NCBI RefSeq assembly: GCF_001705235.1 | Contig: NZ_MCGV01000001.1 | Location: 3,476,181-3,540,180 of the forward strand | DNA length: 64,000 bases | Source: Clostridium pasteurianum | Lineage (GTDB): Bacteria; Bacillota; Clostridia; Clostridiales; Clostridiaceae | Direction of reading: 5' to 3' | Shown here: positions 41,556 to 64,000 of the stretch, one piece after another | Layout of the letters: each line of letters begins with the position of its first letter | How positions within the stretch are numbered: the first letter of the stretch is position 1 | Translations under genes and position numbers: made by a program | The notes under the pieces: model-generated | Database searches by the model: none | Told to the model about the DNA's origin: nothing | The model's input: the letters and a program-made list of their open reading frames with translations, nothing else

Positions 41556-41560
41556 AGCGT

Positions 41561-41637: not shown

Positions 41638-41665
41638 ACCTTTTAAAAATATATTTGTTTTATGT

Positions 41666-41741: not shown

Positions 41742-41766
41742 TTTATTATGTTTAGTTTAATGGCGT

Positions 41767-41842
41767 CGGGGTGTGGCGCAGATGGGAGCGCGCGTGGTTT
41801 GGGACCATGAGGTCGCAGGTTCAATCCCTGTCACCCCGACCA
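41767..41842 (+). tRNA. tRNA-Pro (TGG)
   Basis: Second Pro copy, again followed by a Gly-TCC gene as at the start of the array. Confidence 0.95.
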
Positions 41843-41852
41843 ATAATAATAT

Positions 41853-41926
41853 GCGGGTGTAACTCAATGGTAGAGTGCTAGCCTTCCAAGCTAGTTACGA
41901 GGGTTCGATTCCCTCTACCCGCTCCA
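41853..41926 (+). tRNA. tRNA-Gly (TCC)
   Basis: Fourth Gly-TCC copy. Confidence 0.95.
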
Positions 41927-41948
41927 ATTTTATTAAAGGCGTTTTTAG

Positions 41949-42025
41949 GCGCTCATAGCTCAGTTGGATAGAGTTGCAGACTTCGAATCTGAAGGTCGGG
42001 GGTTCGATTCCCTCTGGGCGCACCA
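41949..42025 (+). tRNA. tRNA-Arg (TCG), last tRNA and candidate integration site
   Basis: The acceptor GCGCTCA pairs with TGGGCGC, the anticodon loop is CTTCGAA (TCG) and CCA is encoded. The top anticodon-stem pair looks like G-A. Its 3' end faces a decayed integrase, the usual arrangement at a tRNA attachment site. Confidence 0.9.
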
Positions 42026-44298: not shown

Positions 44299-45156
44299 AT
44301 GGTGAGTAATATGAAAAATATTGGAGTAATTGGTGCGGGAGTTATAGGAAAAGGTGTAGCGCAAACATTTTCACAAAAAGGATTTTATGTAAATTTGATT
44401 GATGTTTCAGATGAAATTTTGTCACAAGCAAAAGAAACTATACAGAATAATGTTAGATTACAAAATTTATTTTGCAAAAACAAAATGGAAAATAATTATG
44501 AAGATGTATTATCACGAATAAATTTTACTACTGATTACAATTCCATAAAAAATTCGGATTTTGTTGTAGAAAACGTCACAGAAAAATGGAATATTAAGAA
44601 AGCAGTTTATGAGAAAATAGATAAAATATGTCCAAGCAATTGCATATTTATGGTTAATACATCCTGTATATCTATAACTAAAATTGCAGCATTAACAAAG
44701 AGACAATCTAAAATAATTGGTGCTCATTTTATGAATCCAGTACCAATGAAAGATACAGTGGAAACTATAAGGGGACTTAATACTTCTGATGAAACCATAA
44801 AAAAGGTAGAAGAATTATTCTCAGATATTAATAAGAAATGCATTTTAGTAAATGATTATCCAGGATTTGTTTCAAATAGAATCTCGCATGTTTTTATGAA
44901 TGAAGCTGCTTTTGTAGTACAGGACGGGGTTGCGACACCAGAAAAAGTAGATAAAATATTTAAGAACTGCTTTGGTCATAAAATGGGACCGCTTGAAACA
45001 GCAGATCTTATAGGACTTGATACAGTAATGAATTCATTGGATATACTTTTTGAAAGTTATCAGGATCCTAAGTTTAGATGCTGTCCATTAATTAGAAAAA
45101 TGGTTTATGGTGGAGCCTGCGGAAGAAAAACGGGTAAAGGATTTTATAAGTATTAA
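44299..45156 (+). CDS. 3-hydroxyacyl-CoA dehydrogenase-like enzyme of extender-unit synthesis (FkbK/ZmaG type)
   Basis: An NAD-dependent dehydrogenase of 285 residues, related to 3-hydroxybutyryl-CoA dehydrogenase. The Rossmann motif IGVIGAGVIGKGVAQTFSQKG is at 8-28 and the catalytic His is in GAHFMNPVPMKDTVE. The C-terminal domain has GFVSNRI and ADLIGLDTV. In hydroxy- and methoxymalonyl-ACP pathways this family oxidises the C3 alcohol of glyceryl-ACP to the aldehyde. That role is inferred here from the three matching genes downstream. A primary-metabolism butyrate role is less likely because none of the butyrate genes is adjacent. AAAGGAGAG precedes the ATG. First gene of the cluster. Confidence 0.85.
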   Translation: MVSNMKNIGVIGAGVIGKGVAQTFSQKGFYVNLIDVSDEILSQAKETIQNNVRLQNLFCKNKMENNYEDVLSRINFTTDYNSIKNSDFVVENVTEKWNIKKAVYEKIDKICPSNCIFMVNTSCISITKIAALTKRQSKIIGAHFMNPVPMKDTVETIRGLNTSDETIKKVEELFSDINKKCILVNDYPGFVSNRISHVFMNEAAFVVQDGVATPEKVDKIFKNCFGHKMGPLETADLIGLDTVMNSLDILFESYQDPKFRCCPLIRKMVYGGACGRKTGKGFYKY

Positions 45157-45226
45157 TATAAAAATAATAAAAGAATATGGTTTTCTATTATTAAAAAAAT
45201 ACAATATGTAAAAAGGGGAAGATTTG

Positions 45227-45472
45227 ATGGAAGAGTCAAAAATTAAAATTAAGAATTTCTTATCACGGTATTTTACTAATTATGAATTGAAGGATGACGA
45301 GGATATATTTTCATTAGGGTTTGTAAATTCTTTGTTTGCAATGCAATTAGTAATGTTTATTGAAAAGGAATTTTCAATAACAATTGAAAATGAAGACTTG
45401 GATCTAAGTAATTTTAAGTCAATAAATTCTATGATAAAGCTTATTGATAGTAAAAGGCAAAGTAACAAATAA
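45227..45472 (+). CDS. Free acyl carrier protein (FkbJ/ZmaD type)
   Basis: An 81-residue acyl carrier protein. The phosphopantetheine Ser is S35 in LGFVNSLFAMQLV, a form typical of carrier proteins that carry glyceryl and hydroxymalonyl units, rather than the DSL of fatty-acid ACP. The ATG at 45227 is preferred over the in-frame TTG just before it; AAGGGGAAG lies upstream. It would hold the three-carbon unit while the neighbouring enzymes oxidise it, then deliver it to a PKS acyltransferase. Confidence 0.9.
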   Translation: MEESKIKIKNFLSRYFTNYELKDDEDIFSLGFVNSLFAMQLVMFIEKEFSITIENEDLDLSNFKSINSMIKLIDSKRQSNK

Positions 45473-45547
45473 GAAGTGTAATGTTCGATAGAAATATAAA
45501 TAGATTTTTATCAAGTGTTATAGCTTGATTGTACAAGGGGGAAAATA

Positions 45548-46684
45548 ATGATGTCGTTAACACCAGAACAATTAAAGCTACAGTCAGAATTTAAAATATT
45601 TGTAGATAAGTATATAACGCCTTACGCGGCTAAAAATGATGTAGAAGAAATTCTACAAGAAAATATCATTAACAATATTAAAAAGAAAGGTTACTTGGGT
45701 TCAATGATTCCAAGCAATTTTGGAGGTCTTGGCTTTGATTCTGTTACAATAGGCATATTAAACGAAGAAGTAGGAAAAGGATGTTCATCTACAAGATCAC
45801 TCTTAACTGTACATGGAATGGTAGCAATTGCTATTAATAGATGGGGAACGAAAGAACAGAAAAAATATTGGCTTCCTAAGCTAGCAAAAGGAGAATTAAT
45901 AGGCGCATTTGCACTTACAGAACCAAATGTGGGAAGTGATGCAAATAGTATAGAAACAACAGCTGTTTTGGATGGAGAAAATTATATTTTAAATGGCAAT
46001 AAAAAGTGGATTACTATGGGACAAATTGCGGATGTTTTTTTAGTATTTGCAAAAATAAATGGAAAAACTACTGCACTTTTAGTTAACAAAAGAGCAAAAG
46101 GATTTTCTATAGAGCCAATGAAAGGTCTATTGGGTGCTAGAGCATCAATGATAGCTAAATTAAAATTTGAAAATTGTATTATTCCAAAAGAAAACTTAAT
46201 TGGAAGAGAGGGAATGGGTTTATCCCATGTAGGACTTTATTCTTTAGATTATGGTAGATATACCATTGCATGTGGATGTGTAGGATTAGCACAAGCATGT
46301 TTAAATGAAAGTTTAGCCTATTGTAGAAAAAGAGTACAGTTTAAGGTTGCATTACGGGAGCACCAATTAATACAAAAGATGATAACCGAAATGATTGTAA
46401 ATATACAGGCTGCTAGGCTCCTTTGCTATAATGCAGGACAATTAAGAGATTTAAAGGATCCCGATTCAATAATGGAAACTTGGAATGCTAAGTATTTTGC
46501 TTCAAAAATGGCTAATTCTGTAGCTAGCTATGCTGTGCAAATATTTGGAGCAAAAGGTTTATCTAAAGATTATCCAATCGAGAGATATTTTAGAGACGCA
46601 AGAGTAAATGAGATTATAGAAGGAAGCAGCCAAATACATGAGAGTTTAATAGCTAAAAATGCATTTAGATATGAAAACTTATAA
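45548..46684 (+). CDS. Acyl-CoA dehydrogenase-like flavoenzyme (FkbI/ZmaE type)
   Basis: A FAD-dependent acyl-CoA dehydrogenase family protein of 378 residues. Family blocks: GAFALTEPNVGSDANSIETT (FAD/substrate binding), GRYTIACGCVGLAQACL, QIFGAKGLSKDYPIERYFRD and the catalytic Glu E358 in NEIIEGSSQIHE. In the FkbI group it oxidises the aldehyde on the carrier protein to the carboxylate, giving hydroxymalonyl-ACP. It could instead be a normal beta-oxidation enzyme, but the order ACP - dehydrogenase - FkbH argues for the extender pathway. GGGGGAAAA stands before the ATG. Confidence 0.87.
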   Translation: MMSLTPEQLKLQSEFKIFVDKYITPYAAKNDVEEILQENIINNIKKKGYLGSMIPSNFGGLGFDSVTIGILNEEVGKGCSSTRSLLTVHGMVAIAINRWGTKEQKKYWLPKLAKGELIGAFALTEPNVGSDANSIETTAVLDGENYILNGNKKWITMGQIADVFLVFAKINGKTTALLVNKRAKGFSIEPMKGLLGARASMIAKLKFENCIIPKENLIGREGMGLSHVGLYSLDYGRYTIACGCVGLAQACLNESLAYCRKRVQFKVALREHQLIQKMITEMIVNIQAARLLCYNAGQLRDLKDPDSIMETWNAKYFASKMANSVASYAVQIFGAKGLSKDYPIERYFRDARVNEIIEGSSQIHESLIAKNAFRYENL

Positions 46685-46707
46685 AAATGGAAATTCAGGT
46701 GATTCAA

Positions 46708-47748
46708 ATGGGAAATGTTAAATCAAAAAGGGAAAAAATAAAATGTGTAGTATGGGATTTGGACAACACTATATGGCATGGAATTTTGAGTGAAGACAAA
46801 AATATAACGATTAATGATAAGGCTTTAGAGGTAATTAAAGAATTGGATAATAGGGGGATTTTACAATCTATAGCCAGTAAGAATGATAGTGATGTTGCTA
46901 TAAAAAAGTTAGAAAAATTTGGATTAGCGGATTATTTTATATATCCGCAAATTAATTGGGGACCAAAATCAGAATCAATTGCTGTTATAGCTAAGTCTAT
47001 AAATATAGGAATTGATACAATAGCTTTTGTTGATGATCAGAGTTTTGAGTTAGAGGAAGTAAAATTTACGCATCCCGAAGTTATGTGCATAGATTCTTCT
47101 GAGATAGGAAAAATGTTAGAAATGGATGAAATGAATCCTAAATTTATAACAAAAGATTCTAAGCTTCGTAGAAGTATGTATATCAATGATATAAAAAGAA
47201 ATAAAATTGAAGAGAAATTTAGTGGTACCAAAGAAGAATTTTTATCTTCACTTAATATGAAATTTAAAATATCTGAAGCTAAAGAAGAAGATTTAAAGAG
47301 AGTAGAAGAACTTACGGTAAGAACTCATCAATTAAATACTACTGGATATACGTATTCGTATGATGAATTAAATGAATTTAGAGTTTCAAATAAATATAAG
47401 TTATTAGTGGCGGAATTAGAAGATAAATTTGGAGGATACGGGAAAATAGGATTAACGTTGTTGGAGTGTAATGAGAAATGTTGGACAATTAAATTATTTA
47501 TAATGTCATGTAGGGTTGTGTCTAGAGGGGTAGGGAGTGTATTACTTAATTACCTAATGAAGTTGTCAAAACACAATAATGTGAAATTAAGAGCTGAATT
47601 TGTACCTACAGACAGAAATAGAATGATGTATATTACTTATAAGTTTGCTGGTTTTAAGCAGATAGATAAAATAGGTAATATTACATATTTAGAAAATAAT
47701 TTAGATAACATTCAGGAATTTCCAAGTTATATAGAGATAGAATACTAA
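46708..47748 (+). CDS. FkbH-like glyceryl transferase/phosphatase
   Basis: A two-domain protein of 346 residues. The N-terminal HAD-IIIC domain has the motif VVWDLDNTIW (D17 and D19). The C-terminal half is a GNAT-like region with RTHQLNTTGYTYS and the acyl-carrying Cys, C268, in MSCRVVSRGVG. The FkbH family takes 1,3-bisphosphoglycerate, removes phosphate and loads glycerate on the free ACP. The frame opens at 46687, but AGGTGAT fits the ATG at 46708. This gene is the most specific sign of a hydroxy- or methoxymalonyl-ACP pathway. Confidence 0.92.
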   Translation: MGNVKSKREKIKCVVWDLDNTIWHGILSEDKNITINDKALEVIKELDNRGILQSIASKNDSDVAIKKLEKFGLADYFIYPQINWGPKSESIAVIAKSINIGIDTIAFVDDQSFELEEVKFTHPEVMCIDSSEIGKMLEMDEMNPKFITKDSKLRRSMYINDIKRNKIEEKFSGTKEEFLSSLNMKFKISEAKEEDLKRVEELTVRTHQLNTTGYTYSYDELNEFRVSNKYKLLVAELEDKFGGYGKIGLTLLECNEKCWTIKLFIMSCRVVSRGVGSVLLNYLMKLSKHNNVKLRAEFVPTDRNRMMYITYKFAGFKQIDKIGNITYLENNLDNIQEFPSYIEIEY

Positions 47749-47758
47749 ATGGAAAGGG

Positions 47759-50700
47759 ATGAATAGGGATATGAATTTAAATAACAATGTTTCTCAAGAA
47801 GAGATTTCAGAATATATAGTAAATTTGGTTGAAGAAATATTAGATAAAAAAATTACAGAATGTAATAAGCCATTTATCGAGTTGGGATTACAATCAGTAA
47901 ATATTCCACTATTTATTAAAAAGGCTTCAACAAAATTTAATATTAAAATTGAAATTTCATCAATATTTAAATGCCCAACTATAAATGAATTTTCAAAATA
48001 TTTATTCAATAAATTAAACAATGAAGATAAGGAACCTAATAAAAATAGTAATACGAAAAATCATGAAAGTACTGAAGATTATAATGCAGCAATTGTAGGA
48101 ATGAGTTGCCGTTTTCCCAATGGAGGAAATAGTCCAGAGGAATACTGGGATGTTTTAATTAGTGGGAAAAACGGAATTTCAAATATGCCTAGAGATAGAT
48201 GGGATATTGATAAATATTATAGTGAAGATAAAAATGAGCCTGGAAAAATGTATACTAAGAAAGGTGGATTTCTAAACGTACCAATTAATAAGTTTGATGC
48301 ACAGTTTTTTAACATATCACCCAAAGAAGCAGAATCATTAGATCCCCAACAGAGAATTTTATTGGAATTAACATGGGAAGCATTTGAAAGTTCAGGGATG
48401 GATATAAGAGAATATTTTGGAACCAATACAGGCGTATATGTAGGAATTGCGGGTGATGAATATTCCTTTGCACATTATAAATCAGGTGATTTAAGTAAGG
48501 TGAATCCGTATTCCCTTACAGGAACTACATTTAGTACTGCATGCGGGAGAATATCATATGTATTTGGGTTTGAAGGACCATGTATGTCTGTGGACACAGC
48601 ATGTTCATCAGCACTAACTGCTTTGCATGTTGCTTGTAAAGCTATTGAATCAGGTGAGATAGATACAGCTGTAGTTGCAGGTGTAAATTTAATGATAACT
48701 CCATCAATTCATATATGTTTTTCAAAGCTAGGTGCAATATCTCCTGATGGACAAAGTAAGAGCTTTGATGCATCGGCTGATGGATATGGTAGAGGAGAAG
48801 GTGCAGGAGTACTAATATTAAAGAGAGTAAAAGACGCTGAAAAAGAGAAAGATAATATTTTAGGGATAATTCGAGGAACAGCTATAAATCAAGATGGGAG
48901 AAGTAATGGATTAACAGCACCTAATGGATTATCACAAGAAAAAGTTATAAAAAAGGCATTAAATAGTGCTAATTTAAACCCAAATGATATCGATTATATT
49001 GAAATGCACGGAACAGGAACTAAATTAGGAGATCCAATTGAAGTAAATGCAGTTGCTAATGCTTATTGCAAGAATAGAATCAAAGAAAATCCACTAAAAA
49101 TAGGTTCGGTAAAGTCTAATATAGGTCATTTGGAAGCTGCATCGGGAATAGCAAGTATAATCAAGGCATTATTAATATTTAAAAATAATGTGATTCCAGC
49201 TAATTTGAATTTTATAGAACCAAATTCATTTATACCATGGCAGGAAATTCCAGTTGAAGTTGTAGCAAAAAATACTGAATGGAAAAAGAAAAGAAGACTT
49301 AGGAGAGTTGGTATAAATGGCTTTGGGTTTGGAGGTTCAAATGCCCATGTAATAATAGAGGAACCTAATAATAAGGACATAGAAGAGCATAACGTTAAAG
49401 ATTTTTCGTATTTATTTAAAATATCAGCTAAAAGTAAGGCAGCTTTATTTAATAATATAAGAAATAATATTGAGTATATTGTAGACAATGAACAATTTAG
49501 TTTTAGAGACATTGTTTATACTAATAATATAAATAAATCAGATTTCAATTATAGATTTATTGTATCGGGAAATGATAGAGAAAACATAGTAAGCAAAATG
49601 GAGAGATATTTAGAAGATGGAACTAAAGATAATATTTTTACCAATATTGATAAAGAAACAGATTCTCATAAAGAAAATAAATTAGTATTTTTATTTACAG
49701 GTCAAGGTTCTCAGTATGTTGGTATGGGAGAAGCCTTATACTATAATAATACAGTTTTTAAAAATGCATTTGATGAATGTGATAGATTGTTTAAGCCATA
49801 TCTTTTAAAATCATTAGTTGAATTGGTATATAGTAAAAAATATAACAATGAATATGTACAAAGAACTTTATACGCACAACCATTGATATTTGCTATTGAA
49901 TATGCTTTATCAAAGTTTTGGGAAAGTATAGGAATAAAGCCTGATATAGTATTAGGACACAGCATAGGAGAATATGCAGCAGCTGTTATATCTGGAATGA
50001 TAAGTTTAAATGATGGAGTGAAATTAGTGGCAGCTAGAGGCAGATTAATGGATTCTGCACCAGGAGAAGGAGCCATGTTAGCTATATATAGTAATATTGA
50101 TACTGTTAATTCATTATTAGCTAATTATAAAAATAAAGTATCTATTGCAGTTTATAATGCTGAAAGTAATATAGTCGTATCAGGTGAAAAAGATTCTATA
50201 GAAGAAATTATTAATACGGCAGAAGAAAAGAAAATAAAAGTAAAGAAACTACATGTATCACATGCATTTCATTCACAAATGATGGTTCCAATATTAGAGG
50301 ACTTCAAGAGTATAGCATCAGAGGCAAAATATCATACATCTAATACAAAATATATATCATCTACCTTAGCAAGATTTATTGAAAAAGATGAAATTTTAGG
50401 AGCAGACTATTGGACGAATCATATAACAGGAAAAGTAGATTATTATAATGCATTGTTGAAATTATCCAATATGAATAATGTAGTGTTTTTGGAAGTAGGA
50501 GCTAATAAAACTTTATGTACACTTGCAAAATTAGTATTAGATAACAGTAAAGTATTGATAAACTCACTGTCTTTTAAAGAAAATGCTTTAGACTCAATAA
50601 TTAATTCAATAGGTCAATTGTACTGTAATAATTTCAACATAGCATGGAAAAAATTATATTTAAGTACAGATAATACGTATAAAAGAGTTCCTTTGCCAGT

Positions 50701-53581
50701 ATATTCATTTGACAGAAAGTTGTATTGGATGGAACCAGTATGTTCACATCAGAATGATGATGCTCATAAAGATATAGATTACCATCCTTTAATAGGTGAA
50801 AGAATAAGTACTCCTTATTTAAAGAATAGTGTAATATATCAAAGAACTTTTACGGATGAAACTCCATATTTCATGAAAGAACATGTAATATTTGATTCAG
50901 CAATAGCACCAGCTGCTGCTCATATGTCAATGCTTATATCTATTGCTAAAGATTATGGACATCCATCAAGTTGCACAATAAAGGATATAGAATTTCATGC
51001 ACCACTAATTGCTACACGGGATGATAATAGGTTAGTACAGTTTATTATAAAAGATACAAACTTAGATGAAATGAAATTTGAAATCGTAAGCAAGGAAAAG
51101 AAATCACAAAATGAGAATTGGATTAAGCATTGTAAGGGAAATATTATAATGTCACAAGAAAAAAAATCCGAGAAAAATATTTCAATTGAAAAATTAAAAA
51201 ACATGTATCAGGAAGTAACGTCGGGTTTTAATGTATGTAATGTTATGAGAAAGTTTGGATTTAAATTAGGTGATGGCTTTACAAGAATTATGAAAACTTG
51301 GAAAGGTAACGATGGAGGAGTTTGTTATATTGAACCTAAGAAAGATATTCCTGGCATTAGCGATTATGTTGTATATGCTGGTTTAATAGATTCTATTTTT
51401 CAATCAGTTTTATCAGTTTCAGAATTAAGCAGAAAAATGGATTCGCAAAGTGAAGAGTATGCATTAAAAACAATAATCCCAATATCCTTAAAAAGTTTGA
51501 AGTATTACTATAGGAAAGCGGAAAGCTACTGGTGCCATGTCAAAGTAGATAATTTTCAAAAATCTGGAGTAGTTGGAGATATTGATGTTTACAATGAAAA
51601 GGGAGAAATAGTATTTGAAATCGAAAGAATAATGGCTAAGTTAACTGATAGAGATAGCCTACTAAAAGGGCTCAATAATAGTGGAAATCATATGTTATAT
51701 AATGTGGATTGGATAGAAAAGAACAGAAGAGATAGAAAGATTAAGCCTAAGTCAAATGAGAAAATTATATTATTCGGAAATGATGAAAGTATAATAAATA
51801 ATTTTAATGAAAAATTAAATAGTTATGGCATAAAGCCAATTCAAGTAATAGAGGGTAATGAATACACAGAGCAAGAGAATGATATGTACTCTATTTCGTA
51901 TACAAATAAAAAAGATTTTTGTAAACTTTTAGAAAATATTGTAAATAAGTATAAAAAGGAAAATATTAAGCTTATCTATATAAATACTTCATCTCAACAA
52001 AGTATGCATAATATGACATTGGAAGAATTAATGATAAAAGAGCAAGAAGAATGTAGTGGACTACTATATCTTGTACAATCAATAATAGAATTAAATTATA
52101 TATCTAAGATGAGTTTACATGTGATAACAAATAATGTACATGCTTTAGAAAATTCAGATATATCAATATATCAATCTACATTATGGGGATTTTCTGAGGT
52201 AATACGACTTGAACATCCTCAATTATGGGGTGGAATAATTGATACAGATTATAATATGTTAGGTCATAACATAGATGAAATAATAAAGGAAATCAGAAAT
52301 GGAGAAGATAAACAGGTAGTACTTAGAGATAATAATAAAAGATATGTGCCTAAGTTAGTTAAAGGTGCAAAGAATTTTAATGACAAAAAAGATTTAAATA
52401 TATCAATTGAAGATCAAGCTTCTTATATTATTACGGGTGGAACTGGAACTATAGGTCAAATATATGCGGAATATCTTATAGAAAAGGGCGCTAAAAATAT
52501 AATATTATTATGCAGAAGTGAAGCTAAAGATAAGGTACTTAAAAATATTAATTTATGGAAAGAAAAAGGTATAAATGTAATAGTAGAAAGAGCGGATGTA
52601 AGCAATAAAGATGATGTTATAGAAGTTGTAGGAAAGCTTAAAGAAAAAGGAATGAAGATAAAAGGTGTGGTTCACACTGCAGGAACAATAGAAGATATGA
52701 TGATAAAAGATCAAACATGGGATAGCTTTAAAAAGCTGTTTAAAACAAAAGTATGGGGAACATATAACTTACATGATGCATTAAAAAATGAAAAGTTAGA
52801 TTTCTTTATTATGATGTCATCAATTACTTCTATAGTAGGAAATATTGGGCAGGCAAATTATGCAGCAGCAAATTATTTTATGAATGTTTTTGCAGAATAT
52901 AGGAGAAGTTTAGGAATGCCAGCGATGTCAATATGTTGGGGACCATGGTCAGGATCAGGAATGGCAACAAGAAGTAATGATACTATAAAAAATATTGCCA
53001 TGAAAGGAATATATAGTATTTCAAAAGACCTTGGAAAGAAAATGATTGATAAAATATTTAGTAAGGACATTTCTTCAATTATAGTTGCTGATGCAAATTG
53101 GGAATTATTTAGTGAAAAAACTGGTGTGAATGAAGTGACTGAATTCTTATCAGATTTTATAACAGAGGACGTCATATCACCAGATAATGGCGTGAAAGCA
53201 GTTGATAATAAGGAATTTCTAGCAAAATTGAAAGCCTTAGAGTCTAGCGAGAGAAGTGAGTATTTACTAAACTACTTAAAAAAAATAGTAGCTAAAGTAA
53301 TGGGATTTAAGGATATAAATAATTTGTCTGTAGATAGTACATTTACAGAACAAGGGGTAGATTCTTTAATGATATTTTCTATAAGAAATGAAATTAAGAG
53401 TCTATTAAATATAGAAATAGATATTTCGGTATTTTTTAATTATCCATCCTTAAGAAAATTAAATGAATATTTATTAACGGATGTTATTAAGTTAGATGAT
53501 AAGGTAGAGGATACTATTGAAAGTAAGACGATTGAAACAGTAGATGATATTTTATCAGAAATAAATTCTTTAATAGAATAA
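47759..53581 (+). CDS. Modular polyketide synthase: ACP-KS-AT-DH-KR-ACP
   Basis: A 1940-residue type I PKS. Domains: N-terminal ACP (10-85, S46 in LGLQSVN); KS (about 108-535, C282 in DTACSS, H417 and H457); AT (about 650-960, S735 in GHSIGE, HAFH at 835-838, the malonyl-type motif); DH (about 1005-1290, H1042 in HVIFDSAIAP, D1211 in DSIFQ); KR (about 1555-1735, GGTGTIG at 1560-1566, IED matching the LDD loop, YAAAN); and ACP (1830-1905, S1869). There is no ER, so the module should give an enoyl unit. The short helical tail (VDDILSEINSLIE) looks like a docking segment. No loading ligase is fused. An alternative start is the ATG at 47771. It begins 10 bases after the FkbH gene. Confidence 0.95.
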   Translation: MNRDMNLNNNVSQEEISEYIVNLVEEILDKKITECNKPFIELGLQSVNIPLFIKKASTKFNIKIEISSIFKCPTINEFSKYLFNKLNNEDKEPNKNSNTKNHESTEDYNAAIVGMSCRFPNGGNSPEEYWDVLISGKNGISNMPRDRWDIDKYYSEDKNEPGKMYTKKGGFLNVPINKFDAQFFNISPKEAESLDPQQRILLELTWEAFESSGMDIREYFGTNTGVYVGIAGDEYSFAHYKSGDLSKVNPYSLTGTTFSTACGRISYVFGFEGPCMSVDTACSSALTALHVACKAIESGEIDTAVVAGVNLMITPSIHICFSKLGAISPDGQSKSFDASADGYGRGEGAGVLILKRVKDAEKEKDNILGIIRGTAINQDGRSNGLTAPNGLSQEKVIKKALNSANLNPNDIDYIEMHGTGTKLGDPIEVNAVANAYCKNRIKENPLKIGSVKSNIGHLEAASGIASIIKALLIFKNNVIPANLNFIEPNSFIPWQEIPVEVVAKNTEWKKKRRLRRVGINGFGFGGSNAHVIIEEPNNKDIEEHNVKDFSYLFKISAKSKAALFNNIRNNIEYIVDNEQFSFRDIVYTNNINKSDFNYRFIVSGNDRENIVSKMERYLEDGTKDNIFTNIDKETDSHKENKLVFLFTGQGSQYVGMGEALYYNNTVFKNAFDECDRLFKPYLLKSLVELVYSKKYNNEYVQRTLYAQPLIFAIEYALSKFWESIGIKPDIVLGHSIGEYAAAVISGMISLNDGVKLVAARGRLMDSAPGEGAMLAIYSNIDTVNSLLANYKNKVSIAVYNAESNIVVSGEKDSIEEIINTAEEKKIKVKKLHVSHAFHSQMMVPILEDFKSIASEAKYHTSNTKYISSTLARFIEKDEILGADYWTNHITGKVDYYNALLKLSNMNNVVFLEVGANKTLCTLAKLVLDNSKVLINSLSFKENALDSIINSIGQLYCNNFNIAWKKLYLSTDNTYKRVPLPVYSFDRKLYWMEPVCSHQNDDAHKDIDYHPLIGERISTPYLKNSVIYQRTFTDETPYFMKEHVIFDSAIAPAAAHMSMLISIAKDYGHPSSCTIKDIEFHAPLIATRDDNRLVQFIIKDTNLDEMKFEIVSKEKKSQNENWIKHCKGNIIMSQEKKSEKNISIEKLKNMYQEVTSGFNVCNVMRKFGFKLGDGFTRIMKTWKGNDGGVCYIEPKKDIPGISDYVVYAGLIDSIFQSVLSVSELSRKMDSQSEEYALKTIIPISLKSLKYYYRKAESYWCHVKVDNFQKSGVVGDIDVYNEKGEIVFEIERIMAKLTDRDSLLKGLNNSGNHMLYNVDWIEKNRRDRKIKPKSNEKIILFGNDESIINNFNEKLNSYGIKPIQVIEGNEYTEQENDMYSISYTNKKDFCKLLENIVNKYKKENIKLIYINTSSQQSMHNMTLEELMIKEQEECSGLLYLVQSIIELNYISKMSLHVITNNVHALENSDISIYQSTLWGFSEVIRLEHPQLWGGIIDTDYNMLGHNIDEIIKEIRNGEDKQVVLRDNNKRYVPKLVKGAKNFNDKKDLNISIEDQASYIITGGTGTIGQIYAEYLIEKGAKNIILLCRSEAKDKVLKNINLWKEKGINVIVERADVSNKDDVIEVVGKLKEKGMKIKGVVHTAGTIEDMMIKDQTWDSFKKLFKTKVWGTYNLHDALKNEKLDFFIMMSSITSIVGNIGQANYAAANYFMNVFAEYRRSLGMPAMSICWGPWSGSGMATRSNDTIKNIAMKGIYSISKDLGKKMIDKIFSKDISSIIVADANWELFSEKTGVNEVTEFLSDFITEDVISPDNGVKAVDNKEFLAKLKALESSERSEYLLNYLKKIVAKVMGFKDINNLSVDSTFTEQGVDSLMIFSIRNEIKSLLNIEIDISVFFNYPSLRKLNEYLLTDVIKLDDKVEDTIESKTIETVDDILSEINSLIE

Positions 53582-53597
53582 AAATGGGGGTGATTTC

Positions 53598-56500: not shown

Positions 56501-59500
56501 TATTAATTTATTTACACTAGGATTTGATTCTTTAGTATTAGTAACATTTAATAAGAAAATAGCAAATAAATACAAAATAAATATATCCTTAAATGAGTTT
56601 TTTACTAAGTTAGATACTATAGAGAAAATCGCTGAATATATTTATGAAAATACGGATGAACCTGATATGGAAGATGAAAATGTTGATACCGTAAAAGATT
56701 TAACATCTTTACAAGAAAATAGTACTAGTGTGAATACTATTGATTCAGCTAATCAGGTTAAAGTTAATAAGAGGGATAGAGAATATTCTTTGGAGGGTAT
56801 TGGCTCAGTACAGCAGATATTTAATAATCAGATACAAGTTATGTCAGAACAGCTTCAAATTATTAAAAAAATAACTAATGGTGATAGTAGACAGGCAGTA
56901 AGTGCTCATAAGAGTCTAGTACCAGTGAAAAATAAGGAAATTAATAAAAATCATTTAAATGAAAATAAAATTAGCAAAAATACTAGAGATTATTATGTTC
57001 CATATAAAAAATTAAATTTGACAGAGAAAGAAAGATTAAATGATTTAAAGTTAAAATACGTCAAAAGTATAGAAAAGAAATATACAAGTTTCACTAAGAA
57101 TTCAAAAGAAAATACACAGAAATATAGAAAAGTGTATGCCAATAATAGAAATGTAGCTGGCTTTAGACCTTTGCTAAAAGAAATGATTTATCAAATTATA
57201 GTCCAAAAAGGAAAGGGTTCTAAGATTTGGGATATTGACGGAAATGAATTGATTGATTTAACTATGGGATTTGGAGTAAATTTATTTGGACACAATCCAA
57301 GTTTTGTAGAGAAAGCATTAAAAGAGGAAATAGGAAATGGAATGCCTTTAGGACCTATGGGGAGATTAGCAGGAACAGTTGCAAAACAAATAAGTGAATT
57401 AACAGGAGTTGAAAGAGTAGCATTTTACAATACAGGAACAGAAGCTAACATGGTAGCAGTTAGAATAGCTAGAGCTATTACAGGTAGGAAAAAAATTGTT
57501 GCTTTTGCAGGTTCATATCATGGAACGTTTGATGGTTTGCTAGGATTATCTGTTAAATCAAAAGATGGTAGTAATGTTTCAATTCCATTAGCACCTGGCG
57601 TTATGGAGAGTATGGTTAAGGATTTAATAATATTAGATTATAATAGTGAGGAATCATTAGAATTTATTAAAAATAATCCTGAAGATATTGCAGGTGTATT
57701 AGTAGAAACAGTGCAGAGTAGAAGACCAGATGTCCAGCCAAAAGAGTTTCTAAAGAAATTGAGGCATATAACTGAAGAAGAAGATATTGCATTAATCTTC
57801 GATGAAGTAATTACTGGTTTTAGAATATCAGCTGGAGGAGCACAGGAGTATTTTGGAGTGAAGGCAGATATCGTTACATATGGCAAGGTCGCTGGAGGCG
57901 GAATGCCTATAGGTATCGTCGCAGGGAAATCAAAGTATTTGGACAGTATAGATGGTGGAATGTGGAGTTATGGTGATGACTCTGTCCCAACTTGTAACGA
58001 AAAAAGAACTTTTGTAGCCGGAACTTTTTGTCATCATCCACTGGCAATGGCAGCAGCGCATGCAACATTGAAATATATAAAAGAAAATAAAGACACTATG
58101 TATAAAAAATTGAATGAAAAAACTAATAATTTTGTAGTTAGGATAAATAAATATTTTGAAGAAGAAGATGTACCTATAAGGGTAGTGAATTTCGGATCAT
58201 TATTTAGGTTTGTGTTAAAGGGAGATTTTGAAATTTTCTTCTATGGATTGCTTGAAAAAGGTATATATATATGGGAAGGTAGAAATTGCTTTTTCTCAAC
58301 TGAGCACTCTAATGAAGATATAGAAAAGTTTATCTCAGCAATAAAATTAACTATAGATGAGATGAGGGAAGCAGGATACTTTGATGGAATGTCAATGCGA
58401 TCCGTAAAAAAAAAAGAAACTACATTAAATAAACAAGTACAACAATCGGTAGTTCCAATGTCAATGGTACAGCAGCGATTATATACACAAAGTTTAATTA
58501 AGGACCAAGATCCATATAATATTATATCTGTATTTAAGGTTAAAGGAAAATTAGATATAGATAGATTAGAATCTGTGCTTAATAAAATAGTAAGACGTCA
58601 TGAAAGTTTAAGAACAAGATTGTATGTTGAAGAAGGAAAATTCAAACAAGAAATTTTAAAAAGTATTAACTTTAAAGTGACTAAGGTAAAAAAGGAAAAT
58701 GGAAAGAATTTAAATGATTTAATAGAAGAATCAATTACAAAGTTCAACTTATCGGAAGCACCTCTATTTAAAGCAACTTTAATAAATATAGAAGATAATG
58801 ATAACATTTTGATTTTTGATTTTCATCATACAATAGCAGATGGAATGTCTATGAATGTGTTTGTACAGGAATTTATTAAATTGTATGCTAATGAAAGTCT
58901 TCCAATTGTAAATAAACAATATAGAGATTTTGTGGATTGGGAGAAGCAGTATGTAGATTCAGATGATATTAAAATCAGTGAAAAATATTGGTTAAATAAG
59001 TTGTCAGGAGATATTAATATAGTAAATCTTCCAGCAGACTATCCAATTAAATCAGAAGTGAGCTTTGCAGCAAATACAGTTAAAATGAAGATTTATAATA
59101 ATGTAGTAAGTGGTTTAAAAGTGATAGCAAGACGTAATAAATGTTCTCTGTATATGATATTAGTATCTACATTTAATGTTTTACTTAAAAAGTTATCAGG
59201 AAATGATGATATATTAGTAGGAACTCCTGTAACAAATAGAGCAGATGGATTATTTGATGAAAGTATTGGAATGTTTACTAATACAATTGTACTTAGAAAC
59301 AATCCATCAGATGAAAAAAAGTTTGAATCTTTTTTAAGTGAAGTGAAACAAAACTGTTTAGAAGCTTATTCACATATGTATTATCCATTTAATTTTTTGA
59401 ATAGCAATGCTAATAAAAGCAAAAATGGTGAAAATTCATTAATTAATGTTATGTTTGTGTATGAGAATGTAAATCAAAGAATATTTAAAATAAACGATTT

Positions 59501-62500
59501 AGAAGTAAGCCCATATGAGTATAAAGCTAAGGTATCAGAATTCGATTTTATAATAGAAATTCTTGAAGAAAACGGAATATTTAATATTAATTTAACTTAT
59601 AAAACGGATTTGTTTAAAGAGGATACTGTTAAAAGATGGGGTGAATATTATAAAAATATCTTTGATTTTATTTTGAATAAAAATAACGAAGATTTTAAGA
59701 TTAAAGATATAGATATAATTGGAGAAGATGAAAAGAACAAATTATTATATGAGTTTAATGATACAAAGGCAGAATATCCTAAAGATAAGACAATAAATGA
59801 ATTATTTGAACAGCAGGTAGAAAAGACGCCGGATAATACAGCAGTGGTATTTGAAGATAAAGAGCTAACATACAGAGAGCTTAATGAAAAGTCTAACTCT
59901 TTAGCTAGAGTGTTAAGAGAAAAAGGAGTAGGATCAGATGTTATAGTAGGAATAATGGTAGAACGTTCTTTAGAAATGATAGTAGGAATATTAGGAATAT
60001 TGAAAGCTGGAGGAGCATACATGCCAATAGATCCAGAATATCCAGAAGATAGAATAAAATACATGGTTAAGGATAGTAAGATAGGGATAATATTAACCCA
60101 AAGGAAGTTAGTAAGTAAAATATTGTATGATGGAGAGAATATAGATTTAGAAGACAGTTCATTGTATGGGAGAGAAAAGAGTAATTTAAGCAAAGTAAGT
60201 GGAGCAGATAATTTAGCATATATAATATATACTTCAGGTACAACAGGAAAACCTAAAGGGGTAATGATTAAACATTCAGGAATAAGTAACTTAAAAGTAA
60301 TGTTTAAAAATGATATAAAAGTGCAGGAAAATGATAGAGTATTGCAGTTTGCAAGTTTTGCATTTGATGCTTCTGTATTGGAAATTACAATGAGTCTGTT
60401 AAATGGTGCACAGCTTAATATAGTATCAAAAGAAGTAATTAACAATTATTTAAAATTTGAAGATTATTTGAATAATAATAAAATAACAATAGCTATACTA
60501 CCACCAACGTATTTAAATAGCATGGACAATAATGAAATAAAAACGCTGAGAATATTGATAACTGGAGGATCAGCCATAAAAAAAGAATTACTAAATAAAT
60601 GGAGCAATAAAGTAAAATATATAAATGCGTATGGACCAACTGAGACTACAATATGTTCAACTATATGGCATTATAGTGATAATGCAAAAGAATTAGACAC
60701 AGTTCCAATTGGCAGACCAATTAATAATTTAAATGCTTATGTTGTAAATAAAAATTTGAAATTAGTGCCCATAGGAGTAGCAGGAGAATTATGTATAAGC
60801 GGAGATGGACTAGCAAGAGGGTATTTAAACAATGAGAAGTTAACAGCAGAGAAATTTGTAGAAAACCCATATGAACCAGGACAAAAGATGTATAAAACAG
60901 GAGACTTAGCAAGATGGCTGCCAGATGGAAATATAGAATTTATAGGAAGAATAGATAATCAAGTAAAGATAAGAGGATTTAGAATAGAGCTTGGTGAAAT
61001 AGAAAATAGTTTATTAAAACTTGAGGGAATAAAGGAAGCAGTAGTAATTAGTAGGGAACAACAAGAAAATAAATGTTTATGCGCTTATTATGTTTCAGAA
61101 AAGGAATATAGTATTAAAGAAATAAGGAGAGAACTTAAAAAGAATATTCCTGATTATATGATACCATCATATTTTATATGCCTTAAGCAGTTACCAATTA
61201 CTAAGAATGGAAAAGTGGATAGAAAGAAATTACCAATTCCTGATGAACACATAGATACAGGAGTAGTATATGAAGCACCACGAAATGAAATAGAAAAGAT
61301 ATTAGTAAAGGTGTGGAAGGATATATTAAATTCAAAGAAAATAGGAATAACTGATGATTTCTTTAGTCTAGGTGGAGATTCTATAAAAGCAATTCAATTA
61401 GCATCAAGAACTAAAGCAAAAGGATATAGTTTTGAGATAGAAAAATTATATGAGAATTCAACAATAAAAGATTTAAGTAAATATGTTAAAAAGAATGAAA
61501 TGGAAATCAATCAACAAGTTGTAAAAGGAAAAGTGAAATTAACTCCTATACAAAAGTGGTTTTTTGAAGAAAAATTTCAAGAAGAAAATCATTGGAATCA
61601 AGCAATTATGCTATATAAAAAAAATGGGTTTAACATAGACATATTAAATGAAGCATTTAATAAAATAATTATTCATCATGATGCCTTGAGGATGATATTT
61701 AAAAAAGAAAATGGAGAAGTTATTCAAATTAATAGGGGAATAGAAGAAAAGTTATATGATTTAACTATATATGAAAACTTAGAAGAAAAAGAAATAACAG
61801 AAAAATGTAATGAAATTCAAAGTAGTATTAATTTAGAAAAAGGGCCGTTAGTTAAATTAGGATTATTTAAAACAAAACTAGGGGATCATCTACTAATAGC
61901 AATACATCATTTGGTTATAGATGCAGTATCATGGAGAATTTTATTTGAAGATTTAGGAAGAGTATATACTCAAATAGAAAAAGGTGAAAAAGTAACATTT
62001 GCGGAAAAGACCACATCCTTTAAGGAATGGTCGGAAAAGCAAAATGAGTATTCGAATTCTTATAATATAAGAAAGCAGATTGAATATTGGAATAGTATTG
62101 AAGCTAAAAAAGTTAAAAAACTTCCAAAAGATAAAATTACAAGAAGTAAAGAGGTAATGAGCCAAAGCTTTGAATTAGGGAATCAATATACAGAGGATTT
62201 GCTTAAAAAAGTAAATAAAATATATAATACTGAAATCAATGATGTTTTATTAGCAGCATTAGCTTTAACAATAAGCAATTGGACCGGTAATGAAGAGACA
62301 TTAATAAATCTAGAAGCTCATGGAAGAGAAGATATAATAAAGGATGTTGATATAAGTAGAACTGTAGGTTGGTTTACATCACAATATCCAGTAATATTAA
62401 AAGCGTATAAAGATATAAGTGATACCCTAAAAAATACTAAAGACATGTTAAGAAGAATACCGAATAAAGGAATGTCATATGGAATAATTAAGTATTTATC

Positions 62501-64000
62501 AAAGCAGAATATAGATTGTAAGTTAAAGCCAGAAATTTGTTTTAATTATTTAGGACAAGCAGATAGTGACATAAGGGATAATATATTTAAGCTGTCAAGT
62601 ATAGATTGTGGAGATTGTGCTTCAAAAAGTAATAAAAGTTTATACTCATTGGATTTTGAAGGGATAGTATTAGAAGATAAATTAAATATTTCAATAACGT
62701 ATCTTAAGGATGAATTTGATTATAGTACAATAGAAAAATTAATAAAAGATTACAAAGTAAATTTGATTAATATAATTAATCATTGCATGAAAAAGAAAGT
62801 TTCAGAGATAACAGTATCAGAGATAACAAAAGAAGAAATAAAATTTGATGAATTAGAAAAATATAAAGATGAATTAGACAATATCAAAGATATATATCAA
62901 CTTTCACCAATGCAAGAAGGTATGTTATATAATGCTTTATCTGCTGAAAAAGATGCATACGATATAGTTATGAGTTTAGAGATAGAGGGATATATAGATA
63001 AAGAAATTTTAGATAAGGCATTTAATAAGGTAATAGAAAGACATGATATTTTAAGAACTAAGTTTGATTATTCTTCTTTTAAAGGAAATATGCAAGTTGT
63101 CTATAAGAATAGAAAAACTAAAGTAGAGTATATTGATATATCTAATAAATGCTGTGATAAGGAAAAGTATGTAGAAGTATTAATTGATAAGTATAGAAAA
63201 AATGGTTTTGATTTAAGTAATGATATATTAATAAAATTAATACTAATTAAAATGGAGGATAATAAATACAATTTAATTTTAAATAATCACCATATTTTAA
63301 TGGATGGATGGTGTATTGGATTAGTAATAAGCGAATTATTTAAAATTTATAATGAGATAAAATATGGATACAAAGCTAATCTTAATAATGTAATACCGTA
63401 TTCAAAATATATAGAGTGGCTAAAAAATAAAGATGTAAAAGCAACAAAAAATTATTGGATAAATTATTTAAAGGGATATAACGAAGTAGCTAAGGTACCA
63501 TTTGAAAAAGAAAATAGAAACAATAAAGTAAATAATAAGGAAATATCCTTGATTTTAGACGAGGAAAAGACTGAATTGATAAACGATATTGCTGAGGGAA
63601 ATAAAGTTACTGTGAATACAGTAATACAAAGTATATGGGCAATACTTCTTCAAAAATACAATAATATTGATGATATAGTATATGGATATGTTGTGTCAGG
63701 AAGAAGTCCAGAGATCAAAGGAATAGAAGATATGGTTGGATTATTTATAAACACTATTCCATTAAGAATAAAATTCACAAAAGATATGGTTTATGAAGAC
63801 TTATTAAGAAGCATAAGTAATACAACTTTAGAAAATAGTAAGTATGATTATTTAGGTTTGGCTGAAATACAAAACTTATGTGAAGTTAAAAATAAATTAA
63901 TAAACAATATATTGATATTTGAAAATTATCCAATAGATTATAATGAACTAAGTAAAGAAATATTAACAAAAAATAATTTAAAAGTACTTAATTGTAATAC
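53598..64000 (+). CDS. Giant hybrid PKS-aminotransferase-NRPS (partial; continues past the window)
   Basis: At least 3467 residues with no stop before the window end. Order: coiled-coil docking helix (1-34); KS (C207, H342, H379); AT (S648 in GHSIGE, unusual HPYH at 750-753); ACP (S978 in LGFDSL); a helical linker; a PLP aminotransferase (about 1176-1597, K1430 in TYGKVAGGG); condensation domain (HHTIADG from 1743); adenylation domain (about 2065-2550, TSGTTGKPKG); PCP (S2595 in LGGDSIKA); epimerisation domain (HHLVIDAVSW from 2770, RTVGWFTSQYP); and a second condensation domain (HHILMDGW from 3231). The layout resembles mycosubtilin MycA and microcystin McyE. It should extend the chain, convert the beta-keto to a beta-amine, and add a D-amino acid. 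GGGGGTGA precedes the ATG, 16 bases after the PKS. Confidence 0.93.
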   Translation, partial: MEQDVNKYKAALKKAANKIEELSNKINEQKSKDDIAIIGYSCRFPGGASDPEKFWDILSKGIDTVTEIKDSRFDYHKYYSENADEVGKMNTKYASFLKEDIQKFDNAHFGISALEASSIDPQHRLLLEVSWEAMENSALNIEKLKGSRTGVFVGVNSYEYSKAEIFSGNVSDITPYSTTGASLNSASGRLSYFYDFKGPAITCDTACSSSIVALNLAVDSLRNNQCDMAIVGGSNLLLSPESFIGLSKFNGLSKDGKCKAFDDSADGFGRGEGCGVVILKRFKDAKADGNDIVALVKSVFVGQDGRSNGFTAPNGISQQNVIKQALNDANLTVDDLDYVEAHGTGTALGDSIEAHSISEVFKSRKKRILIGSVKSNIGHLEAASGMASLIKVLLCIERKKIPPSINFETPNHNINWDKIKVVDRLIDWDNSKGIRRAGINSFGFSGTLAHAIIEESPTEVTNENLDTLPYYIMTFSAKSEKALKDYIGTMKEYVLKEKKSIGDIAYTTNISRSYLRYRVAIIGKNKEEFAQKIEQMLNKTNNNDYIFKKDKVNGNKIAFLFTGQGSIYKDIAKNFYRTSKPFREILDLCNKKFKDILNISVIDAIYGDDDKLINSPIYSQPIIFSIEYALTRLWNVIGIKPKVVIGHSIGEYAAACYAGLISLDDAVAMIAQRGRMMDSINIDGKMVGVLTNIDKVKAAIEESGVKNVSIAAINAPENVTISGLSNEVDKVVANLQQKERVFINKLNISHPYHSSMMKKYANDYDKNIGDIKFSKLKVNMISSITGKLENEEVLGKKKYWVEHLSNTVKYESAIEEARKLGINIFIEIGGDATLAGLANQCIEDEKIKFLPSLRKGINNYKQWFNSVSTLFLSGMELDWNSFYKTYKTSKVKLPNYRFQRKRFWRDIMNKDIKVQEYEKNTIKPKEIEEIQQKSVNKKSLKNKEKIELELQEMIKSITLMEIDEIEKDINLFTLGFDSLVLVTFNKKIANKYKINISLNEFFTKLDTIEKIAEYIYENTDEPDMEDENVDTVKDLTSLQENSTSVNTIDSANQVKVNKRDREYSLEGIGSVQQIFNNQIQVMSEQLQIIKKITNGDSRQAVSAHKSLVPVKNKEINKNHLNENKISKNTRDYYVPYKKLNLTEKERLNDLKLKYVKSIEKKYTSFTKNSKENTQKYRKVYANNRNVAGFRPLLKEMIYQIIVQKGKGSKIWDIDGNELIDLTMGFGVNLFGHNPSFVEKALKEEIGNGMPLGPMGRLAGTVAKQISELTGVERVAFYNTGTEANMVAVRIARAITGRKKIVAFAGSYHGTFDGLLGLSVKSKDGSNVSIPLAPGVMESMVKDLIILDYNSEESLEFIKNNPEDIAGVLVETVQSRRPDVQPKEFLKKLRHITEEEDIALIFDEVITGFRISAGGAQEYFGVKADIVTYGKVAGGGMPIGIVAGKSKYLDSIDGGMWSYGDDSVPTCNEKRTFVAGTFCHHPLAMAAAHATLKYIKENKDTMYKKLNEKTNNFVVRINKYFEEEDVPIRVVNFGSLFRFVLKGDFEIFFYGLLEKGIYIWEGRNCFFSTEHSNEDIEKFISAIKLTIDEMREAGYFDGMSMRSVKKKETTLNKQVQQSVVPMSMVQQRLYTQSLIKDQDPYNIISVFKVKGKLDIDRLESVLNKIVRRHESLRTRLYVEEGKFKQEILKSINFKVTKVKKENGKNLNDLIEESITKFNLSEAPLFKATLINIEDNDNILIFDFHHTIADGMSMNVFVQEFIKLYANESLPIVNKQYRDFVDWEKQYVDSDDIKISEKYWLNKLSGDINIVNLPADYPIKSEVSFAANTVKMKIYNNVVSGLKVIARRNKCSLYMILVSTFNVLLKKLSGNDDILVGTPVTNRADGLFDESIGMFTNTIVLRNNPSDEKKFESFLSEVKQNCLEAYSHMYYPFNFLNSNANKSKNGENSLINVMFVYENVNQRIFKINDLEVSPYEYKAKVSEFDFIIEILEENGIFNINLTYKTDLFKEDTVKRWGEYYKNIFDFILNKNNEDFKIKDIDIIGEDEKNKLLYEFNDTKAEYPKDKTINELFEQQVEKTPDNTAVVFEDKELTYRELNEKSNSLARVLREKGVGSDVIVGIMVERSLEMIVGILGILKAGGAYMPIDPEYPEDRIKYMVKDSKIGIILTQRKLVSKILYDGENIDLEDSSLYGREKSNLSKVSGADNLAYIIYTSGTTGKPKGVMIKHSGISNLKVMFKNDIKVQENDRVLQFASFAFDASVLEITMSLLNGAQLNIVSKEVINNYLKFEDYLNNNKITIAILPPTYLNSMDNNEIKTLRILITGGSAIKKELLNKWSNKVKYINAYGPTETTICSTIWHYSDNAKELDTVPIGRPINNLNAYVVNKNLKLVPIGVAGELCISGDGLARGYLNNEKLTAEKFVENPYEPGQKMYKTGDLARWLPDGNIEFIGRIDNQVKIRGFRIELGEIENSLLKLEGIKEAVVISREQQENKCLCAYYVSEKEYSIKEIRRELKKNIPDYMIPSYFICLKQLPITKNGKVDRKKLPIPDEHIDTGVVYEAPRNEIEKILVKVWKDILNSKKIGITDDFFSLGGDSIKAIQLASRTKAKGYSFEIEKLYENSTIKDLSKYVKKNEMEINQQVVKGKVKLTPIQKWFFEEKFQEENHWNQAIMLYKKNGFNIDILNEAFNKIIIHHDALRMIFKKENGEVIQINRGIEEKLYDLTIYENLEEKEITEKCNEIQSSINLEKGPLVKLGLFKTKLGDHLLIAIHHLVIDAVSWRILFEDLGRVYTQIEKGEKVTFAEKTTSFKEWSEKQNEYSNSYNIRKQIEYWNSIEAKKVKKLPKDKITRSKEVMSQSFELGNQYTEDLLKKVNKIYNTEINDVLLAALALTISNWTGNEETLINLEAHGREDIIKDVDISRTVGWFTSQYPVILKAYKDISDTLKNTKDMLRRIPNKGMSYGIIKYLSKQNIDCKLKPEICFNYLGQADSDIRDNIFKLSSIDCGDCASKSNKSLYSLDFEGIVLEDKLNISITYLKDEFDYSTIEKLIKDYKVNLINIINHCMKKKVSEITVSEITKEEIKFDELEKYKDELDNIKDIYQLSPMQEGMLYNALSAEKDAYDIVMSLEIEGYIDKEILDKAFNKVIERHDILRTKFDYSSFKGNMQVVYKNRKTKVEYIDISNKCCDKEKYVEVLIDKYRKNGFDLSNDILIKLILIKMEDNKYNLILNNHHILMDGWCIGLVISELFKIYNEIKYGYKANLNNVIPYSKYIEWLKNKDVKATKNYWINYLKGYNEVAKVPFEKENRNNKVNNKEISLILDEEKTELINDIAEGNKVTVNTVIQSIWAILLQKYNNIDDIVYGYVVSGRSPEIKGIEDMVGLFINTIPLRIKFTKDMVYEDLLRSISNTTLENSKYDYLGLAEIQNLCEVKNKLINNILIFENYPIDYNELSKEILTKNNLKVLNCN

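Follow-up and report, generated by a model that had tools for sequence, protein, structure and literature searches.

A clostridial PKS-NRPS cluster predicted to form a 3-amino-2-hydroxy acyl unit from its own hydroxymalonyl-ACP supply

Introduction

What does a hybrid polyketide synthase-nonribosomal peptide synthetase (PKS-NRPS) cluster make when it carries both its own hydroxymalonyl-ACP supply and an aminotransferase module, and in which module is the hydroxymalonyl unit used? The question is raised by a 64,000-nucleotide stretch of Clostridium pasteurianum DNA, here called the window (genome G000, contig C1, positions 3476181-3540180; the genome has 4.68 Mb on two contigs). A sequence-only reading of the window had described a clostridial cluster of six neighbouring rightward genes, predicted to make a short unsaturated polyketide that ends in a beta-amino acyl unit and is joined to a D-amino acid. 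Our analysis supports that reading overall, with corrections to the acyl unit, the starter and the uniqueness of the cluster. From sequence comparison we consider it reasonably probable that the intact cluster makes a short lipopeptide with a 3-amino-2-hydroxy acyl end, the 2-hydroxyl of which would come from glycolysis and not from O2.

In bestatin, microginin and other aminopeptidase inhibitors it is the alpha-hydroxy-beta-amino group that binds the metal; microginin is a cyanobacterial 3-amino-2-hydroxy compound. In beta-amino lipopeptides of the iturin/mycosubtilin and occidiofungin types, a class III aminotransferase lies between the PKS module and the first C domain; these systems use a malonyl extender and a thioesterase, with a ligase as loader in the iturins. 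FkbH-type enzymes load glyceryl from 1,3-bisphosphoglycerate onto a discrete ACP. The acyl-ACP dehydrogenase of the zwittermicin A pathway is reportedly named ZmaG. That pathway contains the FkbH-type glyceryl loader ZmaN, the discrete ACP ZmaD, the acyl-ACP dehydrogenase and the acyl-CoA dehydrogenase ZmaE (PMC6395733, in excerpt), and a hydroxymalonyl-ACP pathway has been proposed for amicoumacin too (PMC4894447, in excerpt). Cyanobacterial 3-amino-2-hydroxy units, such as those of floridanemamide and tychonamide, are made with an aminotransferase plus a monooxygenase (PMC13252402, in excerpt).

Results

The open reading frame (ORF) list and the Pfam and NCBIfam domain calls bear out the six neighbouring rightward genes, A-F, all of which are present and intact (Table 1), and a GC content of 30% agrees with the clostridial label. 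Genes A-D make up a complete four-part cassette of FkbH enzyme, discrete ACP (dACP), hydroxyacyl dehydrogenase and acyl-CoA dehydrogenase (ACAD). Both marks of an FkbH enzyme, a TIGR01686 score above the cut-off and a DxDxT motif, were found in D. The Glu of the IIEG motif, the catalytic residue of acyl-CoA dehydrogenases, is present in C, and S-[LM]-F-A stands at the dACP site in all ten aligned cassette dACPs. No O-methyltransferase was found among the cluster ORFs given to Pfam (the ACP and ORFs of at least 130 aa); together with genes A-D this supports, at the level of sequence, the earlier claim that the cluster has its own supply of hydroxymalonyl-ACP. By analogy with the zwittermicin pathway, A would oxidise glyceryl-ACP to 2-hydroxy-3-oxopropionyl-ACP and C would perform the last oxidation, giving hydroxymalonyl-ACP.

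Pfam confirmed the domain orders that had been read for the two large proteins, ACP-KS-AT-DH-KR-ACP for the PKS (E) and KS-AT-ACP-aminotransferase (AMT)-C-A-PCP-E-C for the megasynthase (F); epimerisation (E) domains score with the Condensation model of Pfam and were separated by motif and position. Further modules had been expected past the window. F is open to 6,067 aa without a stop, so that it is not broken downstream, and the part beyond the window adds A-PCP-E-C-A-PCP-C, for a full order of KS-AT-ACP-AMT-C-A-PCP-E-C-A-PCP-E-C-A-PCP-C. The aligned catalytic motifs of the KS, DH, KR, AMT, FkbH, dehydrogenase, C and epimerisation domains are kept. At the usual Gly of HxxxGxxxxP the DH of E has Asp, as do six of the seven aligned DH domains. 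Judged by its domains, E is predicted to deliver an alpha,beta-unsaturated acyl chain, and the AMT of F to convert a beta-ketone to a beta-amine; the lysine of TYGKVAGGG is presumably the pyridoxal phosphate lysine. The epimerisation domain is in keeping with the predicted D-amino acid residue. The A domain for residue 2 has the code DGFFLGVVYK, which we take to specify Ile.

To place the hydroxymalonyl unit, we compared AT signatures. According to the proposal of a study on ZmaA-AT, an RXR position with hydrophobic residues points to an AT for ACP-bound extenders and one with charged residues to a malonyl-CoA AT, the RXR and second motifs being MCM/GAAH in ZmaA-AT, IAI/GPFH in ZmaF and KTT/HAFH in the malonyl-CoA AT of ZmaK (PMC4207774, in excerpt). 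In our alignment the AT of E (E-AT) has KVK/HAFH and looks malonyl-CoA-type; the AT of F (F-AT) has FIN/HPYH, with a hydrophobic first residue and Asn third at the RXR position, where relatives include exceptions. The relatives came from an AMT pattern scan that gave 57 loci, all annotated by phmmer with domains of this cluster; the FkbH search covered 40 of these loci (39 genomes), and thirteen relatives, plus a second locus of genome G006, were extended with neighbouring stretches. The closest is Paucisalibacillus globulus DSM 18846 (L013, G004:C12), its AMT being 76% identical. An E-type PKS followed by KS-AT and AMT also occurs in G006, G007, G008, G009 and G011. All seven distinct clusters that have an E-type PKS show F[IV]N together with [HYR]P[YF]H in the AT preceding the AMT. 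This motif pair is missing from all 30 other loci whose AMT module has an AT fused to it or beside it, a set that includes seven close Burkholderia loci and two truncated at a contig end. FkbH with an identity of 50% or higher was found in 6/7 genomes with F[IV]N clusters versus 3 of the 20 searched among the 30 others (one-sided Fisher p = 0.0017, for related sequences grouped after the motif had been seen and with discrete-AT clusters left out). Leaving motifs aside, the 40-kb stretches of G005, G013 and G023 each combine the full cassette with a single KS, a single AT and a single AMT. Because of the motifs of F-AT and E-AT and these single-AT relatives, we place hydroxymalonyl in the aminotransferase module of F, where it probably gives a 3-amino-2-hydroxy acyl unit. 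The beta-aminotransferase module of the sequence-only reading thus stands, and its acyl unit is corrected to alpha-hydroxy-beta-amino on the AT motifs and the relatives.

Several observations weigh against this placement. The cassette is present without a large hydrophobic first RXR residue in G013 (PSH), G005 (NIT) and G207 (KVT), several cassette-free ATs have Ala or Pro in the RXR stretch, and the third residue of F-AT is itself Asn. No FkbH was found in the metagenome-assembled genome (MAG) of G009, although its AT is F-type, and in G006 the contig of the cluster does not carry the FkbH genes, which lie elsewhere. Among the PDB matches of F-AT, CurL comes first at 208 bits and ZmaA-AT (4qbu) no higher than sixth, at 137 bits.

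For the start of the chain we considered a discrete FabD-like AT (dAT) that lies beyond the window. E begins with ACP-KS and has no loader domain; the N-terminal acyl ligase of iturin-type synthetases is not present. The dAT keeps Ser (GYSMG) and His (YAFH), and the position of the malonate/dicarboxylate-binding Arg, Arg in the other aligned ATs, is Ile in all five dATs. A dAT is in the region of all five clusters in which E starts without a ligase (G000, G004, G007, G008 and G011) and is absent from the contigs of the two whose E starts with a ligase domain (G006 and G009); this 5:0 versus 0:2 split has p = 0.048 and includes two close MAGs (G007 and G008). The ligase domain of G006 and G009 is closest to fatty acyl-AMP ligases, scoring below the family's curated cut-off. 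These comparisons suggest that the dAT probably loads the starter, and a fatty or other acyl starter is likely because in two relatives a domain resembling fatty acyl-AMP ligases stands in place of the dAT; the same domain makes the "short polyketide" of the sequence-only reading doubtful. On the other side, the dAT of P. globulus adjoins dACP and ACAD, which would also fit a role in extender transfer, dAT homologues occur in operons or neighbourhoods without PKS genes (G005, G006 and G023), and G006 has two homologues (45-47% identity) on another contig.

Three dAT homologues (L144:9245-10225, L145:9097-11000 and L146:9238-10164) precede a protein of about 700 aa with no PKS nearby; in L144 and L145, crotonase- and KASIII-like ORFs were noted by eye further on. 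A PaaK-like phenylacetate-CoA ligase (PF14535; window 42541-43839, minus strand) lies between a tRNA array and the cluster and is not at this place in the sister genome G001. It was set aside as a starter enzyme, as it points away from the cluster and no ORF of the same size was seen in the P. globulus region.

Regarding release, F ends in a C domain with intact HxxxDG. No thioesterase was found in the cluster, nor is the C-terminal thioesterase of the iturin type present; the genome's only PF00975 matches are at C1:3292918 and, within a different NRPS locus, at C1:1021929. Against the PDB the terminal C domain gave two weak matches (E-values up to 0.01), microcystin synthetase B and bacitracin synthase 3. 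Discrete thioesterases, at C1:3292918 and beside the P. globulus cluster, count against release by the C domain and make release by a separate thioesterase possible. Two further NRPS loci were observed in the genome (C1:1024368-1055751 and C1:4197296-4201729), with one open frame of 6,917 aa.

We propose the following assembly. The FkbH enzyme D would put glyceryl on dACP B, and A and C, by family, would oxidise it to hydroxymalonyl-dACP. The dAT would charge the N-terminal ACP of E with a monocarboxylic acyl starter, and E would add malonate, its KR and DH leaving an alkene. F-AT would then transfer hydroxymalonyl from the dACP to the module ACP for condensation by the KS, and the AMT would make an amine of the beta-ketone, as the AT motifs and relatives suggest. 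The three NRPS modules would add residue 1 (D), residue 2 (D) and residue 3, and the terminal C domain would probably release the chain by amine capture or ring closure, possibly via the free beta-amine. An ABC-2 exporter, perhaps with an FtsX/ABC pair, may serve export or self-protection.

We also examined whether the cluster has the monooxygenase of the cyanobacterial route. Among nine relatives tested, a luciferase-like monooxygenase (LLM; Pfam PF00296) follows the AMT in three, all cyanobacterial (L027, L034 and L042); three of the other six have a methyltransferase there and three have neither. A phmmer search with two of these monooxygenase domains covered the 57 loci with flanks of up to 10 kb and the extended regions (mostly 28-48 kb; 20 kb for G007). 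It also found the domain in L036, in an adjacent ORF at L044 and, as a weak free-standing match, in L021; none of the ten cassette-bearing regions had it. PF00296 has no match in E, F, the cluster region or anywhere in this genome; 10 of 14 control genomes have matches. The absence from cassette regions is statistically not strong, which is a point against the oxygen-free reading; about one chance overlap would be expected by rough estimate, and we dropped mutual exclusion of cassette and monooxygenase as a proof, regarding it only as consistent. A Paenibacillus plasmid was seen to have an LLM flavin oxidoreductase near its AMT gene, with no FkbH annotated in the 25.8 kb shown, for which the gene table is incomplete. 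The data fit two convergent routes to 3-amino-2-hydroxy units, one O2-dependent and one O2-free. We take P. globulus to be an aerobe, and the cassette route would therefore not be confined to anaerobes.

All four cassette genes are present in eight regions (G000, G004, G005, G007, G008, G013, G023 and G207); the G006 region lacks FkbH, and that of G011 lacks a recognised hydroxyacyl dehydrogenase. As a correction to the sequence-only reading, the combination is not unique: a close cluster occurs in P. globulus and looser versions in other Bacillota and one Proteobacteria MAG, and the cluster type is, by sequence, a recurring family. By Pfam, the G005 cluster has ligase-ACP-KS, a discrete AT, an MFS transporter and AMT. 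A close FkbH occurs in one of four genus genomes examined, namely this one; the matches in G001 are 31-33% identical, like two further distant copies in this genome. An AMT of at least 63% identity was found in 3/206 family genomes (this one, G082 and G207). A tblastn search of plasmids with residues 1-1600 of F gave 676 records, the best place in each having less than 60% identity. No product assigned to this cluster family was found in the open-licence PMC literature, a scope from which absence from print does not follow; the excerpt of PMC3250452 contains neither 'aminotransferase' nor 'hydroxymalon', and that of PMC8456703 neither 'aminotransferase' nor 'zwittermicin'.

Variants of the cassette were also recorded. 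An electron-transfer flavoprotein (ETF) pair adjoins the ACAD in G007, and size and position, the only criteria used, point to a like gene pair after it in G006, G008 and G011. A second type of cassette ACAD, in L115/L116, L117, L118/L119 and L122/L123, has Ser aligned with the Glu of IIEG, and lies next to a gene pair that is ETF in L117. On an Alkalihalophilus pseudofirmus plasmid (L141) the same dehydrogenase-ACP-ACAD-FkbH cassette stands next to a discrete AT and a KS-KR/KS-KR PKS, no AMT being detected at this PKS locus. On a Gloeocapsopsis dulcis plasmid (L143) the same four-gene order is flanked by a type I PKS on one side and an adenylation-domain gene on the other, with siderophore uptake genes nearby.

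In this genome about 38 kb separate the tRNA array from a gene that reads as a pyruvate carboxylase and comes after the ABC-2 exporter. G001 shares the neighbours at this place (an RdgB-like gene, a phosphodiesterase-like gene and the tRNA array) but has the carboxylase after about 2.4 kb, a gap that holds two ORFs without match to this region. The 38-kb stretch is an insertion relative to G001. In G003 the tRNA array is retained and the carboxylase is elsewhere. The array here (window 40124-42025) has 22 tRNA genes, about 672 bp being duplicated in tandem within it; the arrays at this place count 23 genes in G001 and 32 in G003. The FtsX/ABC pair of this cluster perhaps serves self-protection; in P. 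globulus a similar pair sits between E and F.

Table 1. Features of the cluster (window coordinates unless a locus is named)
Feature	Position	Strand	Evidence or remark
A: 3-hydroxyacyl-CoA dehydrogenase-like	44299..45156	+	PF02737 (187 bits)/PF00725; GAHFMNP and GAGVIGKG motifs
B: discrete acyl carrier protein (dACP) for extender unit	45224..45472	+	PF00550 28.6 bits; GFVNSLFA site
C: acyl-CoA dehydrogenase family enzyme	45548..46684	+	PF00441 (146 bits)/PF02770/PF02771; IIEGSSQIHE
D: FkbH-type HAD enzyme	46687..47748	+	TIGR01686 290.5 bits (cut-off 146.65); WDLDNT
E: PKS, ACP-KS-AT-DH-KR-ACP	47759..53581	+	Pfam; AT motifs GHSIG/Arg/KVK/HAFH; KS, DH and KR motifs
F (part in window): KS-AT-ACP-AMT-C-A-PCP-E-C...	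53598..64000 (continues)	+	whole protein 6,067 aa, end C1:3547981 (L012:279-18482)
F-AT: predicted hydroxymalonyl-ACP acyltransferase	55272..56216	+	GHSIG/Arg/FIN/HPYH
F-AMT: class III aminotransferase	57192..58277	+	PF00202 191 bits; lysine in TYGKVAGGG
F-C1: condensation domain, acyl unit to residue 1	58440..59747	+	PF00668; HHTIADG
F segment between F-C1 and F-E1	59805..61487	+	
F-E1: epimerisation domain	61524..62840	+	scored by PF00668; HHLVIDA
FtsX permease/ABC pair, between F and dAT	L009:9051-12097	-	beyond window
Discrete FabD-like AT (dAT)	L009:12590-13519		beyond window
ABC-2 exporter, three genes	L009:13549-16221		beyond window

Discussion

The placement of the hydroxymalonyl unit has to be weighed against two other ways of using it. 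The dAT might, like ZmaF, ferry the ACP-bound extender to the module, leaving F-AT a spectator or a malonyl AT. Its GYSMG resembles the GYSLG of ZmaF (PMC4207774, in excerpt), and it adjoins dACP and ACAD in P. globulus and dACP-FkbH-ACAD in G011; we nevertheless hold this to be unlikely, given the Ile at the dicarboxylate-binding position in 5/5 dATs, the K or R with which their RXR begins, and the cassette-bearing cluster regions of G005, G013, G023 and G207, which have no dAT (homologues lie elsewhere in G005, G023 and G207). That E uses hydroxymalonyl and F extends with malonyl, to a plain beta-amino acyl unit, strikes us as decidedly unlikely. The carboxylate-binding Arg, kept in both ATs, speaks for it, but E-AT has the charged RXR and the HAFH of a malonyl-CoA AT, no E-type PKS accompanies the cassette of G005, G013 or G023 within the 40 kb covered, and G009 shows an E-type PKS but no cassette in its 40 kb. 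The cluster might also be silent or inactive, with no product in ordinary conditions, and no regulator was noticed among its annotated ORFs; the intact reading frames and checked motifs, and the same domain order in P. globulus, which argues for selection, make this very improbable.

The cluster can be compared with known systems. It shares with zwittermicin A the four supply proteins and, by prediction, the use of an ACP-bound extender, which in zwittermicin A goes to an AT whose RXR residues are hydrophobic (PMC6395733 and PMC4207774, both in excerpt). It differs in that its genes show no seryl/aminomalonyl arm, an aminotransferase is part of the predicted accepting module and F-AT is not especially close to ZmaA-AT. 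With the cyanobacterial 3-amino-2-hydroxy systems it shares a PKS module of AT and AMT followed by C-A-PCP and the same predicted group, but theirs comes from aminotransferase and monooxygenase, whereas here there is a hydroxymalonyl cassette and no monooxygenase (PMC13252402, in excerpt). The class III aminotransferase is placed between PKS module and first C as in the iturin/mycosubtilin and occidiofungin types; a predicted dAT loader, predicted hydroxymalonyl and a terminal C domain set this cluster apart from them. The P. globulus cluster has the same domain order of E and F, terminal C, dAT and all four cassette genes, but its cassette is split to both ends, its F is in two ORFs, its A codes (DILQCGMIWK/DAFFIGATYK/DAWTIAAVCK) differ, and a phosphopantetheinyl transferase and a discrete thioesterase lie upstream. 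Its first epimerisation domain (L111/L112) is divided between two frames; the A domain next to it has a code that we take to be glycine-like, and epimerisation there would for that reason be pointless.

The chemistry of every part is already known; what the analysis adds is the placement of the hydroxyl, the likely starter loader and the recurring family. On balance we lean towards a second, O2-independent bacterial route, in which ACP-bound hydroxymalonyl is condensed and the alpha-hydroxy-beta-keto thioester is aminated on line. Such a route would recur in Bacillota and a Proteobacteria MAG and replace the cyanobacterial aminotransferase-monooxygenase pair; within this cluster's subgroup the starter would be loaded not by the fatty acyl ligase but by a discrete acyltransferase whose specificity has changed. 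If this is true, a cassette fed from a glycolytic intermediate would explain such compounds in bacteria living without oxygen and would offer an AT/ACP pair for engineering, and the combination of cassette, AMT and F-type AT would be a recognisable genomic signature for finding the compounds.
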